The position numbers and the translations under genes are program-made. The notes under the pieces are model-generated. The model was not told where the DNA came from and made no database searches. It saw nothing but the letters and a program-made list of their open reading frames with translations. A stretch of DNA of 64,000 nucleotides from Comamonas badia DSM 17552 (GTDB lineage: Bacteria; Pseudomonadota; Gammaproteobacteria; Burkholderiales; Burkholderiaceae_C). The first letter of the stretch is position 1. Every line of letters starts with the position of its first letter. Below, in pieces: positions 33,978-41,194 of the stretch. Location of the stretch: positions 62,001 to 126,000 of the forward strand of contig NZ_AXVM01000006.1 in the NCBI RefSeq assembly GCF_000484635.1, read 5' to 3'.

Positions 33978-34016
33978 GGGCTAGCATGGCGCACCTCCTT
34001 TCGGAAACCAGCGGTA

Positions 34017-35894
34017 ATGTCTCATCCCCACTTCGTGGCCACGCATGTGCGCTACACCACCCTCGCGCTGTGCGCGCTGGCAGCCGTCGTCAGCCTGCCG
34101 TGGATGGCCATGCGCCCGGGTGCCTGGCCGCTGGCCGTCTTCGTGATCGCCTGCGCGCTGATCGCCATCGGCCTGTACGACATGCGCCAGACGCGCCACG
34201 CGGTACTGCGCAACTACCCCATCCTCGGGCACATGCGCTTTTTCCTGGAGTTCATCCGCCCCGAAATCCGCCAGTATTTCATCGAGGGCGACATCGACAA
34301 GGGCGAGCCCTTCACCCGCGCTCAGCGTACCGTGGTCTACCAGCGCGCCAAGGGTGTGCCGGATGTGCGGCCGTTCGGCACCAAGCTGGACGTGGGCGCC
34401 AAGGGCTATGAGTGGATCAACCATTCGCTGCAGACCACCAAGATCGATTCGCACGATTTCCGCATCTGGATCGGCGGGCAGCCCGGCACGGCGCGCGCCG
34501 GCGTCTCGCCCTGCACCCAGCCCTACAACGCCAGCGTGTTCAACATTTCGGCGATGAGCTTTGGCGCGCTTTCGGCCAATGCCATCCTGGCGCTGAACCT
34601 GGGCGCGAAGATGGGCGATTTCGCGCACGACACCGGTGAAGGCGGCATTAGCCGCTACCACCGCCAGAACGGCGGCGACCTGATCTGGGAGATCGGCTCA
34701 GGCTACTTCGGCTGCCGCAACCCCGACGGCAGCTTCAACCCCGAGCGCTTCGCCGAGCAGGCGACCAGCCCGCAGGTGCGGATGATCGAGATCAAGCTCA
34801 GCCAGGGCGCCAAGCCCGGGCACGGCGGCATCCTGCCGGGCGCCAAGGTCACGACCGAAATCGCCGCCGCGCGCGGCGTGCCCGAGGGCGAGGATTGCGT
34901 CTCGCCCTCCTCGCACGGCGCTTTCTCCACGCCGGTGGAAATGATGCATTTCATCGCCCGCCTGCGCGAACTCTCGGGTGGCAAGCCCGTGGGTTTCAAG
35001 CTCTGCATAGGCCACATCTGGGAGTGGTTCGGCATCGTCAAGGCCATGCTGGAGACCGACATCACGCCTGACTACATCGTGGTCGACGGCGCCGAGGGCG
35101 GCACGGGCGCGGCGCCGATCGAATTCGCCGACCACATGGGCGCGCCGGTGCAGGAAGGCCTGCACCTGGTGCACAACACGCTGATCGGCGTGGGGCTGCG
35201 CGAACGCATCAAGATCGGCGCCGCGGGCAAGGTCATCACCTCATTCGATCTGGCGCGCATGTTCGCGCTGGGCGCGGACTGGTGCAATTCCGGGCGCGGC
35301 TTCATGATGGCGCTGGGCTGCATTCAGGCGCAGGTCTGCCACACGGGCTTCTGCCCCACCGGCATCACCACGCAGGACCCGGTGCGCGAGAAGGCACTCG
35401 TCATCTCGGACAAGGCGCCGCGCGTGGCGCAATACCACGCCAACACGCTGCATGCGCTGAAAGAATTGCTGCAGGCCGCGGGCCTGATGCACCCCGACCA
35501 GCTCAGCACCCACCACATCGTGCGGCGCCTGGACAGCGCGCGCATCCGCCTGCTCTCGGCGCTGATGCCGACGATGGAGCGGCGCGCCATCCTGGACGAT
35601 CTGGCGCACCAGCACAACACCTACCGCCTGTACTGGCCGCTGGCTGATGCGCACAGCTTTGCGCCGCATGTGCCGACGCAGCAAGAGCTGCAGGGCGACC
35701 CGGATATCCTGCGCCCCACCGTGGCCGGCCGCCCTGCATCGGCGGTGCAGATCGCCGAGGCACTCACACGCAGGCACGCACCGCACCCGGCGCCACTCAG
35801 TGCCATCGTGCCCGAACAGGCGCGCGCAAAGCAAACCGCCGCATCAGCCTCGCAAGTGCCCGAAGAGTGGACGGAATCCGTAGGGCCTCAATAA
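34017..35894 (+). CDS. FMN-binding glutamate synthase family protein with N-terminal membrane helices
   Basis: A 625-residue protein whose core (about 140-520) matches the FMN-binding synthase domain of GltB: NISAMSFGALSANAILALN, GEGGISRYHRQNGGDLIWEIGSG (here quoted in two parts: GEGGISRYHRQ and DLIWEIGSGYFG), GAKPGHGG, DGAEGGTGAAP, and CHTGFCPTGITTQDP with cysteines for an Fe-S site. Unlike GltB it has no amidotransferase domain, and residues about 12-60 form two hydrophobic helices. Such stand-alone proteins are widespread but of unproven function; true glutamate synthase activity should not be assumed. The ATG at 34017 is preceded by the IS remnant, so its native promoter may have been altered. 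Confidence 0.85.
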   Translation: MSHPHFVATHVRYTTLALCALAAVVSLPWMAMRPGAWPLAVFVIACALIAIGLYDMRQTRHAVLRNYPILGHMRFFLEFIRPEIRQYFIEGDIDKGEPFTRAQRTVVYQRAKGVPDVRPFGTKLDVGAKGYEWINHSLQTTKIDSHDFRIWIGGQPGTARAGVSPCTQPYNASVFNISAMSFGALSANAILALNLGAKMGDFAHDTGEGGISRYHRQNGGDLIWEIGSGYFGCRNPDGSFNPERFAEQATSPQVRMIEIKLSQGAKPGHGGILPGAKVTTEIAAARGVPEGEDCVSPSSHGAFSTPVEMMHFIARLRELSGGKPVGFKLCIGHIWEWFGIVKAMLETDITPDYIVVDGAEGGTGAAPIEFADHMGAPVQEGLHLVHNTLIGVGLRERIKIGAAGKVITSFDLARMFALGADWCNSGRGFMMALGCIQAQVCHTGFCPTGITTQDPVREKALVISDKAPRVAQYHANTLHALKELLQAAGLMHPDQLSTHHIVRRLDSARIRLLSALMPTMERRAILDDLAHQHNTYRLYWPLADAHSFAPHVPTQQELQGDPDILRPTVAGRPASAVQIAEALTRRHAPHPAPLSAIVPEQARAKQTAASASQVPEEWTESVGPQ

Positions 35895-35899
35895 CAGGG

Positions 35900-35950
35900 A
35901 AATACGGCTCCAGCGCTTGATGATAAAGCGCTGACAGCTATCAAATCAGA
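35900..35950 (+). repeat. AGCGCT-type intergenic repeat
   Basis: CCAGCGCTTGATGATAAAGC followed by GCTGACAGCTATCAAAT contains AGCGCTT-GATGAT-AAGCGCT, a short palindrome, beside AGCTATCAAA. I recognise this as a dispersed repeat style of Comamonadaceae genomes. A related copy lies in the M16 gene signal region (38440-38480) and a diverged one probably in tmk. It falls between the convergent glutamate synthase-like gene and coaD. Confidence 0.65.
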
Positions 35951-35956
35951 ACCTTT

Positions 35957-36445
35957 CTATGCCCGCCCCACCTTGGCCAGCAGGTGCGGCAGCACCGTGC
36001 TGCTGACCAGCCCATCCACCTTGCCGCCCAGTTGCGCAATCTCGCGCACCAGCGTGCTGCTGATGGATTGCCAGCGCGCATCGGGGGTGAGGAAGACGGT
36101 GTCCACTTCCGGACGCAGGTGGCGGTTCATGCCGGCAAGCTGCAATTCGTAATCAAAATCGGTCCCCGATCGCAGGCCGCGCACCATCACCTGCGCACCG
36201 TGCGCCACGGCAAATTCGGTGACCAGGCCGTCAAAGGCCAGCACCTGCACGTTGGGCCGGTCCGCCAGCGCATCGCGCGCCAGCTGCAGCCGCTCATCGA
36301 GCGTGAACAACGTCTTCTTGTGGTGCGCCATCGCCACGGCGACGATCACCGTGCCAAACAGCGCGGCCGCACGGCGCAGCATGTCTTCATGCCCCAGGGT
36401 GATGGGGTCGAAGGTTCCGGGAAAGACGGCGATCGTGGCGGACAT
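35957..36445 (-). CDS. coaD: Phosphopantetheine adenylyltransferase
   Basis: Cytosolic hexameric enzyme making dephospho-CoA from 4'-phosphopantetheine and ATP; 162 residues. AVFPGTFDPITLGHED (about 6-21) contains the T/H-x-G-H nucleotidyltransferase motif. VRGLRSGTDFDYELQLAGMN (about 90-109) and the ISSTLVREIAQLGG motif (about 128-141) are diagnostic. The ATG at 36445 aligns with family starts; the frame opens 11 codons earlier. It follows rsmD, the usual pairing. Confidence 0.98.
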   Translation of the reverse strand: MSATIAVFPGTFDPITLGHEDMLRRAAALFGTVIVAVAMAHHKKTLFTLDERLQLARDALADRPNVQVLAFDGLVTEFAVAHGAQVMVRGLRSGTDFDYELQLAGMNRHLRPEVDTVFLTPDARWQSISSTLVREIAQLGGKVDGLVSSTVLPHLLAKVGRA

Positions 36446-36543
36446 GAGGGGCACTCCTGCAGGGGCAACGCCAGCCATTATGGTGCGATTTCAGGTCAAA
36501 CAGGCCTTTAGCGCTTGACTGGCATGTGCCATCAGCTTCTTTT

Positions 36544-37131
36544 TCAGGAGTGCACTGGCAGGCGCTGCAGCAGATGCGCATGCGCCGCGCCCGCCTTGAG
36601 GTAGCGCTGGCACGCCAGGCCCAGGGGCGCCAGCGCCGCCCCATCCCAGCGCCTGGGCGCCTCCAGGTAAACCCAGCCCTGCGGCGCCACCGCGCGAGCA
36701 GCCGCCTGCAGCGCGGGCACAAAAAGCGCCGCAGCGTCAAACGGTGGATCGAGCAGCACCAGATCCAGGCTCTGCGCCGCGCACTGCGCGAGCTGCGCCA
36801 CGCCATCGCCGCGGCGCACCTGCAGCTGGCTGGCCTGCAGCTTCTCCGCCAGGCGCGCGATGCCCTGCACCAGCGCACCGTCCTGTTCCACCAACAGCAC
36901 CTGGGCCGCGCCGCGCGAAGCGGCTTCCAGCCCCAGTGCGCCCGTGCCGGCAAACGCATCGAACACGCGCCAGCCGGTCAGGTCCTGCCCCAGCCAGTTG
37001 AACAGCGTTTCGCGCACACGGTCTGGCGTGGGGCGCAGACCGGGGCGGTCCGGCACCGCCAGCCTGGTGCGCTTCCATTGCCCGCCGATGATGCGCACCG
37101 CGCCAGCGGGGCGGGCGGCGGCCTTGCTCAC
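36544..37131 (-). CDS. rsmD: 16S rRNA (guanine-966-N2)-methyltransferase
   Basis: SAM-dependent enzyme methylating G966 of 16S rRNA; 195 residues. VRIIGGQWKRTRL (about 12-24), RPTPDRVRETLFNWL (about 32-46), FAGTGALGLEAASRGA (motif I) and DLVLLDPPFD (catalytic D/N-PP-F motif near 128) identify it. The GTG at 37131 overlaps the stop of the upstream M16 gene as GTGA, suggesting coupled translation. It precedes coaD in the common rsmD-coaD order. Confidence 0.96.
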   Translation of the reverse strand: MSKAAARPAGAVRIIGGQWKRTRLAVPDRPGLRPTPDRVRETLFNWLGQDLTGWRVFDAFAGTGALGLEAASRGAAQVLLVEQDGALVQGIARLAEKLQASQLQVRRGDGVAQLAQCAAQSLDLVLLDPPFDAAALFVPALQAAARAVAPQGWVYLEAPRRWDGAALAPLGLACQRYLKAGAAHAHLLQRLPVHS

Positions 37132-38495
37132 GGCTTGGCTGCGGGCTGGGCGCCGACCACCACGGTCACCATGCGGTCGGGCTGGAGCTTGCGCTGCAGC
37201 GCCGCCTTCACGTCCCGCGCGGTGAGCGCTTCCACGCGGTCCGTCCAATGCTCCAGGTAATCCAGCGGCAAGCCGTTGCGCGCAATGTTCACCACATTGC
37301 CCAGCAGCTTGCGGTTGCTGTCGATGCGCAGCGCAAAGCCGCCGATCAGGTTGTCCTTGGCCGCGCGCAGCTGCGCCTCGGTCGGGCCGTTTTGCACAAA
37401 ATCGGCGATCACGGCGCGCGTGACCTTGATGGCCTCCATCGCCTGATCCGGCCGCGTCTGCAGGCCGGCAACGAAGGCGCCCGCCGACAGACCGGGCGTG
37501 AATTCGCTGAAAACGCTGTAGGAAAGCCCGCGCTTCTCACGCACCTCCTCGGTCAGCAGCGAGGCAAAGCCCCCCCCACCCAGGATATGGTCACCCACCA
37601 GCAGGGCGAGGAAATCCGGGTCACCGCGTACAAAACCGGGCTGGCCGATCAGCACATGCGCCTGCGCTGACTGGAACGGGATATCCAGCTCCTGTGCCTT
37701 CGCCAGCGGCTGCAGCGGCGCGAGCGCCGGCAGCGCGGCGCAGCTCTGCGCGTCACCTGCCGGCAGCCGCGCAAGCAGGCCATCCACCAGGCTTTGCGCC
37801 TGTGCGCGGTTCACCGCCCCCACCACCGCCACACGGGCGCGGCAGCGCTGCAGATAGCGTGTGTGGTACGCGCGCAGATCAGCGGTCTGAATGGCATCCA
37901 GCGTCTGCGCCGTGGTCTGCTGGCCGTAGGGGTTGCTGCCGTACACCGCCTTGGCAAACGCCTTGCCCGCCACGGTGCCGGGCTTGGTATCGGCCTCGGC
38001 AATCGCCGCCTGCCAGCGCGCGCGCTCACGCTGCCACACGTCCTGCGGGTAGCTGGGCTGGGCTATCTGGCGCGCGGCCAGCCGCACCGCGCGATCCAGC
38101 AGATCAGGCTTGGTGAGCGAGCGCAGCGAGAAGCTCAGCGCATCGCGCCCCGCGCCGGCGTCCAGGCTGGCCCCCAGATCGGCCCAGGCTTCGCCGAGCT
38201 GGTTTTCATCCAGCGCCGGCAGGCCATCGGCTGCCTGCACGCCCTTGGCGCTCATCAGCGCAACGGCGCTGGCAAGGCCGGCCTGCGCGGCCGGGTCGCG
38301 GCGGCTGCCGGCATCGAAATCCAGCTGCACATCCACCATGGGAATCGCCGGGCTCTGCACCAGCCAGACCTCGGCGCCGTTGGCCTGCGTCCAGTGCTCG
38401 ATCGGCAGCAAGGCAAACGCATTTTGTGCATAAAAAATGCCTGTAACGCCCGTAAATAAAGCGCTGAAAGCTATCTTTTTGATTGTTTTTAGCAT
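37128..38495 (-). CDS. M16-family peptidase-like protein lacking the zinc motif
   Basis: Periplasmic 455-residue member of the insulinase/pitrilysin-like fold. A signal peptide covers about residues 1-28 (cleavage near AFA-LLP). The place of the HxxEH zinc motif is occupied by AGLASAVALMSAKG, so it cannot bind zinc normally. The C-terminal subdomain has the glycine-rich GGGGFASLLTEEVREKRGLSYS block (GGGGFASLLTEEV, EKRGLSYS) used for substrate binding. It should act as the non-catalytic partner of the M16 gene 12 bases upstream. Its signal-peptide codons lie in a dispersed-repeat sequence (see repeat at 38435-38482). Confidence 0.9.
   Translation of the reverse strand: MLKTIKKIAFSALFTGVTGIFYAQNAFALLPIEHWTQANGAEVWLVQSPAIPMVDVQLDFDAGSRRDPAAQAGLASAVALMSAKGVQAADGLPALDENQLGEAWADLGASLDAGAGRDALSFSLRSLTKPDLLDRAVRLAARQIAQPSYPQDVWQRERARWQAAIAEADTKPGTVAGKAFAKAVYGSNPYGQQTTAQTLDAIQTADLRAYHTRYLQRCRARVAVVGAVNRAQAQSLVDGLLARLPAGDAQSCAALPALAPLQPLAKAQELDIPFQSAQAHVLIGQPGFVRGDPDFLALLVGDHILGGGGFASLLTEEVREKRGLSYSVFSEFTPGLSAGAFVAGLQTRPDQAMEAIKVTRAVIADFVQNGPTEAQLRAAKDNLIGGFALRIDSNRKLLGNVVNIARNGLPLDYLEHWTDRVEALTARDVKAALQRKLQPDRMVTVVVGAQPAAKP
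38435..38482 (-). repeat. Repeat-derived sequence inside the M16 signal-peptide codons
   Basis: On the plus strand, AAATAAAGCGCTGAAAGCTATC (quoted as AAATAAAGCGCTG and AAAGCTATC) closely matches ATAAAGCGCTGACAGCTATC of the intergenic repeat near 35925-35945. The patch is strongly AT-rich compared with flanks. It encodes part of the export signal (KIAFSALFTG). Confidence 0.6.
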
Positions 38496-38507
38496 GGCCC
38501 GCTTCCT

Positions 38508-39962
38508 TTACCGTATCGCACCCTGAGCGCCGCCCTGGGTGCCGCCTGGAGCGGCTGCGCGCGGCTTGGCGCCCGCGGCCACGGGCTGCGGCACCAAGGT
38601 ACCGACGGTGAGCTGGTCATCGCCGAAATAGCGCTCGGCCACCGATTGCACGTCGGCCGGCGCGACGTGCTGCAGCAGCGCCAGCAGGCGGTCGTCCGCA
38701 TCCAGCGGTAGCCCTTGAATCCAGTTGCTGCCCAGGTCGCTGGCCTGGCCGCGCAGGGAATCGCGGGCGTAAATCGTCGATGCCGCCCATTGCGCCTTCA
38801 CACGCGCGAGCTCGGCGCTGCTGACGCCGTCCTTCGCCACCCGCGCCACCTCGGCGCGCAAGGCGGATTCCACGTCGGCCGCGCTCTTGCCCTGCGCCGG
38901 CACGCCGCTCAGCATGAACGTTGCCGGCCCGCGCCCGAACACCGAAGCCCAGGCCCCGGCGCTGTCGGCCACGCGGTCAGGTCCCTGGGTCAGCGCGCGA
39001 TCGAGCCGCGCGCCGTCGTAGCCGCTGAGCACGGCCGAGAGCACGAGCAGCGAAAGTGCGTCCCTGTCCGTGGCACCAAGGTCCTGCAGCCTGTGCATCG
39101 CGGGGATATGAAACGCCAGCGCCACATAGGCCTGCTCGGCCGGCGCCTTCAAGCTGATGCGCCGCATGCCCTTTTGCCCGGGTTCCAGCTGGGGCTTGCG
39201 CGCCGGCAATACCTGCACCGGCAGCCGGCCATAAATCTCCTCGGCCCAGGCGCGCACCTGCTGCGGATCGACGTCGCCGGCAATCACCAGCGCGGCATTC
39301 GCCGGCGTGTACCAGGTGCGGTAGAACTGACGCACATCATCGGGCTGCAGATTGTCCAGATCGTTCATCCAGCCAATCACCGGGTGGTGGTAGGGCGATG
39401 CCATGAACGTGGCGGCGTTGAGCTGCTCCATCAGTGCCGCACGCGGCTGATCATCGGTGCGCATGCGCCGCTCTTCCTTGATGACCTCGATCTCCTTGCG
39501 GAACTCTGCATCGGGCCACTGGTTGTGGGCAAAGCGGTCGGCCTCCAGCGCCATCACGTCCTTGAGGCGGCTGGCCGGAATCTGCTGGTAATAGCCGGTG
39601 TAGTCGCGCGTGGTGAAGGCGTTTTCCTGCCCGCCCAGCTGCGCCACACGGCGCGAAAACTCGCCGGGCGCAAGCTTGGCGGAACCCTTGAACATCATGT
39701 GCTCCACCACATGCGCCACGCCCGTCGTGCCATTGACCTCGTCCATGCTGCCAGTGCGCACCCAGAGCATCTGGATCGCCGTCGGCGCGCGATGGTCCGG
39801 CTGCACGATGAGCGGCATGCCATTGGCGAGGCGAAATTCCTGCGCGCCGGACGCGGTGGTGACCAGCGGTGCCGCACCGCCAGAGGGCGCGGCGGGCTGC
39901 GGCGGCGCGACGGTGCTGCAGCCAGCGAGGAAAGCCGCGCAAAAAAGAAGGGTGTGTTTCAT
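38508..39962 (-). CDS. M16-family zinc peptidase lipoprotein
   Basis: Envelope metallopeptidase of 484 residues. The N-terminal lipoprotein signal ends in FLAGC (Cys near residue 15). The inverted zinc motif HxxEH is HVVEHMMFKGS near residue 85, and the distal Glu lies about 75 residues on in FRKEIEVIKEERRM. The C-terminal half shows PAEQAYVALAFHIPA and the SVLSGYDGARLDRAL region. It is translated first, with the zinc-free partner following after 12 bases; such pairs work as heterodimers. It is divergent from ftsY with only 29 bases between starts. Confidence 0.93.
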   Translation of the reverse strand: MKHTLLFCAAFLAGCSTVAPPQPAAPSGGAAPLVTTASGAQEFRLANGMPLIVQPDHRAPTAIQMLWVRTGSMDEVNGTTGVAHVVEHMMFKGSAKLAPGEFSRRVAQLGGQENAFTTRDYTGYYQQIPASRLKDVMALEADRFAHNQWPDAEFRKEIEVIKEERRMRTDDQPRAALMEQLNAATFMASPYHHPVIGWMNDLDNLQPDDVRQFYRTWYTPANAALVIAGDVDPQQVRAWAEEIYGRLPVQVLPARKPQLEPGQKGMRRISLKAPAEQAYVALAFHIPAMHRLQDLGATDRDALSLLVLSAVLSGYDGARLDRALTQGPDRVADSAGAWASVFGRGPATFMLSGVPAQGKSAADVESALRAEVARVAKDGVSSAELARVKAQWAASTIYARDSLRGQASDLGSNWIQGLPLDADDRLLALLQHVAPADVQSVAERYFGDDQLTVGTLVPQPVAAGAKPRAAAPGGTQGGAQGAIR

Positions 39963-39991
39963 AGAATGCCTGCGATTCTAGAAACTTCGCA

Positions 39992-41194
<1,203 letters not shown>

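Follow-up and report, generated by a model that had tools for sequence, protein, structure and literature searches.

A family-wide hairpin motif of Comamonadaceae is read in frame in the signal peptide of an M16 peptidase-like protein

Introduction

How does an AT-rich patch that resembles a repeat come to encode an export signal in a GC-rich gene? The question arises in a 64,000-nucleotide stretch of the Comamonas badia DSM 17552 genome (contig NZ_AXVM01000006.1, positions 62,001 to 126,000), which we call the window. An earlier note on this DNA had observed that the sequence for part of an M16 protein's export signal nearly matches an intergenic repeat at 35925-35945, and had proposed that a repeat became coding sequence. 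We followed the repeat through the genome, a 3.68-Mb draft in 24 contigs, and through the family to which it belongs, the Comamonadaceae. The export-signal patch belongs to a hairpin motif found across this family (A-tract, ATAGCT, palindromic arms about a variable loop, AGSC, T-tract), whose genomes contain from 0 to more than 500 copies each. Where the motif sits at fixed sites within genes, its spelling is for the most part that of the surrounding genome, as seen for M16, gluQ and, less fully, rsmB and rarA.

Results

A full-length element encodes most of the M16 signal peptide

The features at the M16 locus are:
37128-38495, minus strand: gene for an M16-family peptidase-like protein of 455 aa (Pfam PF05193, 1.1e-31; PF00675, 4.4e-8)
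38412-38495, minus strand: signal peptide of the M16 protein, MLKTIKKIAFSALFTGVTGIFYAQNAFA (from the translation)
38423-38486, minus strand: full-length copy of the hairpin element, in frame in the signal peptide (score 47.6 with a 64-nt position weight matrix, PWM)
38508-39962, minus strand: upstream M16 peptidase gene (Pfam and open reading frames)

The signal peptide has an n-region with KK, a hydrophobic core and the residues A-F-A before a conserved LLPIEHW, an arrangement kept across orthologues; the cleavage site is a predicted one. The element supplies the codons for about 21 of the peptide's 28 residues. The stop of the upstream M16 gene lies 12 bp ahead of the start codon of the element-bearing gene. 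Elsewhere in the window (39992-40330), the first ~100 residues of an FtsY-like ORF are of low complexity and rich in Pro, Ala and Glu.

The near-match between the export signal and the intergenic repeat is real, with ATAAAGCGCTGA[A/C]AGCTATC at both places, and it is longer than had been seen: it spans the whole ~64 nt, not only ~20 nt. Perfect matches to the core ATAGCTNNYAGCGCTT occur at exactly two places in the window, both on the minus strand (35926-35941 and 38459-38474). In the genome, this 14-base core is matched 49 times, versus 0 times for a reversed control pattern. We collected the genomic copies, built a profile (R1) from 38 of them with the signal-peptide copy left out, and aligned the export-signal region. 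R1 matched 38423-38486 with 40.5 bits (E 6e-10 in the genome, 1.1e-11 in the window), which ranked the copy 58th among the matches listed (at least 150) and identified it as a genuine family member. Outside the search core, the copy scored 15.4 bits in a leave-one-out comparison, a value that 3 of 127,850 positions in the window attain. A chance match was rejected on the core count, the leave-one-out score and the profile score.

The description of an AT-rich patch within GC-rich flanks also held: the GC content of the signal-peptide copy is 0.37 (orthologue mean 0.44), versus 0.70 for the mature gene. Its codons are atypical for the gene, with ATA or GCT in place of ATC or GCC/GCG, a bias that, for ATA and GCT at the first two codons, is partly an effect of how the set was selected. 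The copy folds well (z -3.5), and none of 200 shuffles folded as well.

The element is dispersed between and within genes

All 49 core matches align without gaps over ~64 nt, a handful of them poorly at the right end. The order of parts is an A/T tract, ATAGCT, the arm AGCGCTT, a variable 7-nt loop, the arm AAGCGCT, AGSC, a T tract and AAAT. The element carries 56 bits of information per copy. At least 150 copies were found in the genome with R1 (weakest listed E 7e-4), most of which retain both arms and the AT tracts over ~40-64 bp. The loop is found either way round while the flanks stay the same (GATGGAT or ATCCATC, GCTGG or CCAGC; element copies L001-L047), as if loops were flipped by exchange between the palindromic arms. 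No Rfam family matched within window positions 34000-40000, no element match was present among 50,697 phage records, and the short motif-encoded peptides matched no Pfam family. Within the literature searched, neither this element nor uptake signals of Comamonadaceae were the subject of any paper.

Two further copies lie close to the M16 gene:
35890-35953, minus strand: dispersed copy between two convergent genes, the repeat of the earlier note (PWM 65.6; R1 55.1 bits, E 3e-16)
35957-36478, minus strand: cytidylyltransferase-like gene, coaD by context (PF01467, 2.9e-26)
36488-36551, minus strand: degenerate copy at the rsmD-coaD junction, missed by the earlier note (PWM 34.3; R1 20.2 bits, E 2.4e-5)
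36544-37248, minus strand: rsmD-type methyltransferase gene (Cons_hypoth95; PF03602, 6.7e-41), whose start may be further downstream

The copy at 35890-35953 forms the expected hairpin (-16 kcal/mol), with a folding energy not significantly better than that of its shuffles. When 40 loci were compared, the rsmD-coaD copy was kept at the junction in most genera with arms of the AGCGCTT type, and none was seen in genomes with other arm types. Thus, the element seems to come and go more quickly at intergenic positions than at those in M16 and gluQ.

We examined 89 distinct copies of the C. badia genome, judging their coding status by codon-position GC. Most are intergenic; by crude gene calls, 38 intergenic copies divide into 28 between co-directional, 8 between convergent and 2 between divergent genes. 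At least 8 lie in genes, so that the term "intergenic repeat" needs correcting for a family with several coding members:
Internal copies: gluQ, rsmB, rarA, a UvrD-type helicase/nuclease gene, truB and a fumarylacetoacetate-hydrolase-family gene
N-terminal copies: ligA and M16

All of the gene copies but M16 read the other strand of the element, giving QAL(A/P/S)A or QA(Q/R).A. Three of the eight (ligA, rarA and the helicase/nuclease gene) hint at a bias toward genome-maintenance genes.

Protein lengths are unchanged where the motif is present

A 64-bp insertion would add 21 residues to a protein. In nearly all genomes the segment is 38 residues long in rsmB and 31 in rarA, whether the motif is there or not. 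The alignment with E. coli RsmB shows a net difference of 2 residues at the element site, and truB is longer than its E. coli counterpart by 4 residues. The M16 signal peptide has a median of 25 codons with the element versus 26 without. The unchanged lengths in rsmB, rarA and the signal peptide favor codons turned into the motif in place over an insertion. We regard them as the strongest argument, on the sequences compared, against both a recruitment story and a simple mobile element. The suggestion that a repeat became coding sequence is thereby split: one copy does encode the M16 signal peptide, but a comparison with element-free orthologues indicates that nothing was inserted, and a landing followed by recruitment is not supported.

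The element occupies the same place of gluQ in most of 28 genomes. A 22-residue insertion there (35 residues, versus 13 in the element-free genome G097) was considered and rejected: other element-free genomes have 30-37 residues, and the segment is thus a variable linker.

The M16 copy recurs in frame across the family

Across a set of 200 family genomes, the core was matched 0-540 times per genome (lower bounds where the arms are divergent), with controls near 0. We assembled M16 orthologues from 98 family genomes and 80 named loci, overlapping sets that gave 170 usable loci and 64 distinct sequences. A generic element (ATAGCT with at most 1 mismatch, plus a T tract) was found in 82 of the 170 loci, and in all 82 it sits at a multiple-of-three offset from the mature protein. 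Likewise, the best element match was at the same M16 codon offset in all 24 genomes that have at least 20 copies; 22 were far above the background of about -38, and the other two, G178 (7.7) and G003 (13.5), scored lower.

Counted by genome, the M16 element is present in the same frame in 48 of 90 family genomes. Orthologues in distant genera thus have the same nucleotides, an outcome that the earlier note had itself set as a refutation and that argues against a local recruitment in C. badia. Presence at M16 goes with the dispersed repeat: at least 8 dispersed copies were found in 34 of the 48 genomes with the M16 element versus 3 of the 42 without (Fisher 3e-10, uncorrected for phylogeny), the remaining 14 of the 48 having few recognizable dispersed copies. 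On a quick protein tree the element label was clustered, with 13 changes versus 28.5 when shuffled. Element-free lineages are nested within element-bearing ones: Paracidovorax anthurii, konjaci, cattleyae and oryzae, and the Diaphorobacter caeni group. By the pattern used, these lineages have no dispersed copies, and their signal peptides have similar residues in mostly GC-rich codons. In P. valerianellae (59 copies) and Comamonas terrae (19) the M16 site has drifted although dispersed copies are kept. The M16 element is old and family-wide.

Arms change in pairs and largely follow genome dialects

Other genera spell the arms differently, for example GCCCAGG..CCTGGGC (G148), GCGCCCG..CGGGCGC (G071), GCGTAGG..ATACGC (G039), CTCCCGCGATATTCTATTGGGCT (G064) and TTGAGCAGTATTTACATGGGCT (G035). 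At the orthologous M16 site, all 7 of 7 arm pairs change on both sides. Arm covariation at this site was 0.273, versus 0.163 when shuffled (0 of 500) and 0.149 for the best slid control; relatedness inflates the shuffle test and affects the slid controls less. The two arms pair at 3.83 of 7 positions, versus 3.19 expected from the same amino acids with the gene's usual codons (p 0.0016).

We then asked whether each gene copy is spelled as the dispersed copies of its own genome are. Scored on the variable part, the M16 copy fitted its own genome's set best in 10 of 12 genomes, and scored on the whole element it did so in 9 of 12; the former score alone is a fair test, since the dispersed sets were picked by patterns that fix the element ends. 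For G085, G128, G099, G039 and G148 the dispersed subset was copied by hand from longer lists, which may sharpen some consensuses. The gluQ copy matched its own dialect best in 8 of 10 genomes. For rsmB (5 of 12) and rarA (3 of 12) the match was weak overall, but rarA in G064 and G035 clearly spells the unusual dialect of its genome, and G064 has near-identical strings at M16, gluQ, rarA and dispersed sites. In C. testosteroni the dispersed arms are GCCTAT..ATAGGC and the M16 copy is still GCGC..GCGC.

We also considered the M16 copy as the sole founder of the family. This was rejected because copies in gluQ, rsmB and rarA are also shared across dialects, and the C. testosteroni dispersed dialect has changed without its M16 copy.

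Plasmid copies and Y1_Tnp genes

A 35-nt stretch of the element, 91% identical, lies within a DUF1010-annotated ORF of plasmid NZ_KJ541071.1 (15639-15673; L416:3001-3035), and the same stretch is found in plasmids NZ_OQ821197.1, NZ_OQ821192.1, NZ_OQ821193.1 and NZ_KY913898.1. In KJ541071 this ORF adjoins blaOXA-2 in a class 1 integron-like gene array with sul1 and qacEdelta1. The resemblance suggests that the blaOXA-2-adjacent DUF1010 cassette passed through a Comamonadaceae-like background, and some DUF1010 annotations may be translations of the element. The 373-kb Comamonas odontotermitis plasmid NZ_CP083452.1 has a copy between convergent genes (L417:1501-1561), one of six matching places on this record.

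Most of the family genomes searched outside the genus Comamonas, element-free ones included, have a single gene of ~240-300 aa with a Y1_Tnp domain (RAYT-like; L178-L207); G015 has 20 Y1_Tnp matches. No Y1_Tnp gene was found in the C. badia genome or its two congeners, and a RAYT-driven REP was rejected on this ground.

Discussion

What kind of system spells one motif alike at scattered intergenic sites and in the codons of unrelated genes? Because the fixed coding copies follow the genome-wide spelling, both a sequence-specific partner and a spread of changes free of insertion seem to be needed. We tentatively favor, at a little under an even chance, a sequence-specific genomic watermark that is kept in place in permissive coding sites and that most resembles the dialects of DNA-uptake signals. 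A trans-acting, sequence-specific partner would recognize the motif throughout the genome and, through this recognition, codons at permissive protein sites would be driven into the motif in place; a signal peptide would be permissive because mainly hydrophobicity counts there. By analogy, the best-fitting partner would be a DNA-uptake receptor. Motif-bearing DNA from relatives would be taken up and recombined, so that the motif spreads with all copies in one dialect, as happens with the uptake signals of Neisseria (DUS) and Haemophilus (USS), and recombination would write it into homologous sites without insertion. Where a lineage lost the system, the codons would revert to ordinary GC-rich usage.

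Several known systems resemble the element in part. Rickettsia palindromic elements are translated in frame inside unrelated conserved genes, as insertions that lengthen the protein. The Comamonadaceae element is likewise a palindromic repeat read in frame in unrelated conserved genes, but it leaves the length of rsmB, rarA and the M16 signal peptide unchanged and its copies follow a genome-wide dialect. The known uptake signals, DUS and USS, have cores of 9-12 bp and typically thousands of copies. The DUS dialects of Neisseriaceae follow phylogeny (PMC3630211), and DUS occupy permissive sites of the core genome, form inverted-pair terminators and are enriched in genome-maintenance genes (PMC2397512). 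The element shares with them the many copies of one sequence-specific motif, branch-specific spellings within one family, and copies in permissive core-gene sites and intergenic inverted pairs (PMC3630211, PMC2397512). It differs in being ~40-64 bp long and palindromic, in having about 100-540 copies rather than thousands, and in a conserved core made of ATAGCT and AT tracts rather than a CTG core. Like the Haemophilus USS, it has a core with A/T-tract flanks and arises by changes to pre-existing sequence rather than by insertion, whereas the USS is a 9-bp core plus tracts, with no hairpin and no comparably large change of paired-arm dialect (PMC1939737). BRE, a repeat of beta-proteobacteria including Comamonadaceae, is about 90 bp long with 69% GC, partly tandem and present in up to 29 copies, with 1 copy in Acidovorax sp. 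JS42 (PMC3110155). It shares Comamonadaceae hosts and some coding copies with the element (PMC3110155); identity with BRE was rejected, as the element has 64 nt, a GC of about 0.37-0.5 and single copies.

We infer with moderate confidence the step from a watermark kept in place to an uptake signal. The element has the over-representation, the lineage dialects (with exceptions) and the in-place origin in core genes that mark DUS and USS; in place of a short core of 9-12 bp as a sufficient unit, most copies keep ~40-64 bp with both arms and AT tracts. The element evolves like an uptake signal, and we do not class it as a DUS or USS, because of this lack of a short core and because the uptake role is read from sequence evolution. 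Counting against the uptake reading, the unit is ~40-64 bp, palindromic and much rarer than DUS or USS, and the information per copy exceeds what a receptor would need, which hints at copying. Dialect tracking is incomplete in rsmB, rarA and C. testosteroni, and M16 sites have drifted in P. valerianellae and C. terrae. Copies are found on plasmids too, and 14 of the 48 genomes have few dispersed copies.

The hint of copying leads to the REP/REPIN elements, which are likewise high-copy, mostly extragenic palindromes whose populations differ between lineages (PMC2817692, PMC3116915). A miniature mobile hairpin of this kind would have been spread by a transposase, landing at times in genes, with later conversion keeping the copies alike. 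It would account for a high-copy, mostly intergenic palindrome with 56 bits per copy and lineage-specific populations, and for a rsmD-coaD copy limited to one clade. We consider it unlikely, though worth keeping in mind. The C. badia genome and two congeners, with 92-130 core copies each, have no Y1_Tnp (RAYT) gene, single Y1_Tnp genes also occur in repeat-free genomes, and a copy lies near only 5 of 30 Y1_Tnp loci, where enrichment is not clear. In contrast with REP/REPIN, the coding copies are in-place replacements at conserved sites. The rsmB, rarA and signal-peptide copies are not insertions, and conversion among 64-bp repeats with randomized loops is hard to picture. The idea of the earlier note, a repeat inserted in the M16 gene and recruited as a signal peptide, fares far worse: the copy does belong to a dispersed family and does serve as coding sequence for a signal peptide, but 48 of 90 family genomes have a same-frame copy with no length difference from element-free orthologues, and we consider it very improbable. 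A very old insertion at the M16 site, before the family radiated, would still be conceivable on these comparisons.

In another explanation the motif is a site on the chromosome, either one bound or processed by a nucleoid-organizing or segregation protein or a hairpin acting as a bidirectional terminator or in mRNA stability, and selection at each site matches it to a factor that varies between lineages. Such a role would fit the perfect inverted arms with A- and T-tracts to either side, the strong fold of two copies and the placement of the intergenic copies, which by the crude gene calls lie mostly between co-directional or convergent genes and rarely between divergent ones. A terminator, however, would work without a common arm sequence, and at codon 7 of a gene a strong one would do harm unless ribosomes translated through it. 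Hundreds of sites would each have to be under selection, amino-acid changes in housekeeping enzymes included, and we rate this explanation as rather improbable, below the mobile hairpin.

Returning to the watermark kept in place: if its following of dialects in place holds, a non-coding force shapes protein sequence across a whole bacterial family, and orthologous codons in several unrelated genes would form a natural experiment on molecular drive versus selection. Those who call genes or build protein families for Comamonadaceae should be prepared for peptides derived from the motif, such as IAARALLVSAGA and QALPAI. It is possible, if somewhat doubtful, that the Comamonadaceae have a third lineage of natural DNA-uptake signals, with a ~64-bp palindromic hairpin in many genus-level dialects that is strong enough to rewrite amino acids of housekeeping enzymes and of a signal peptide at each change of dialect. 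If the partner is an uptake receptor, self-specific DNA uptake, known from Neisseriaceae and Pasteurellaceae, would also be a trait of a large environmental family, which would explain barriers to gene exchange between its genera and offer a transformation tool for these bacteria.
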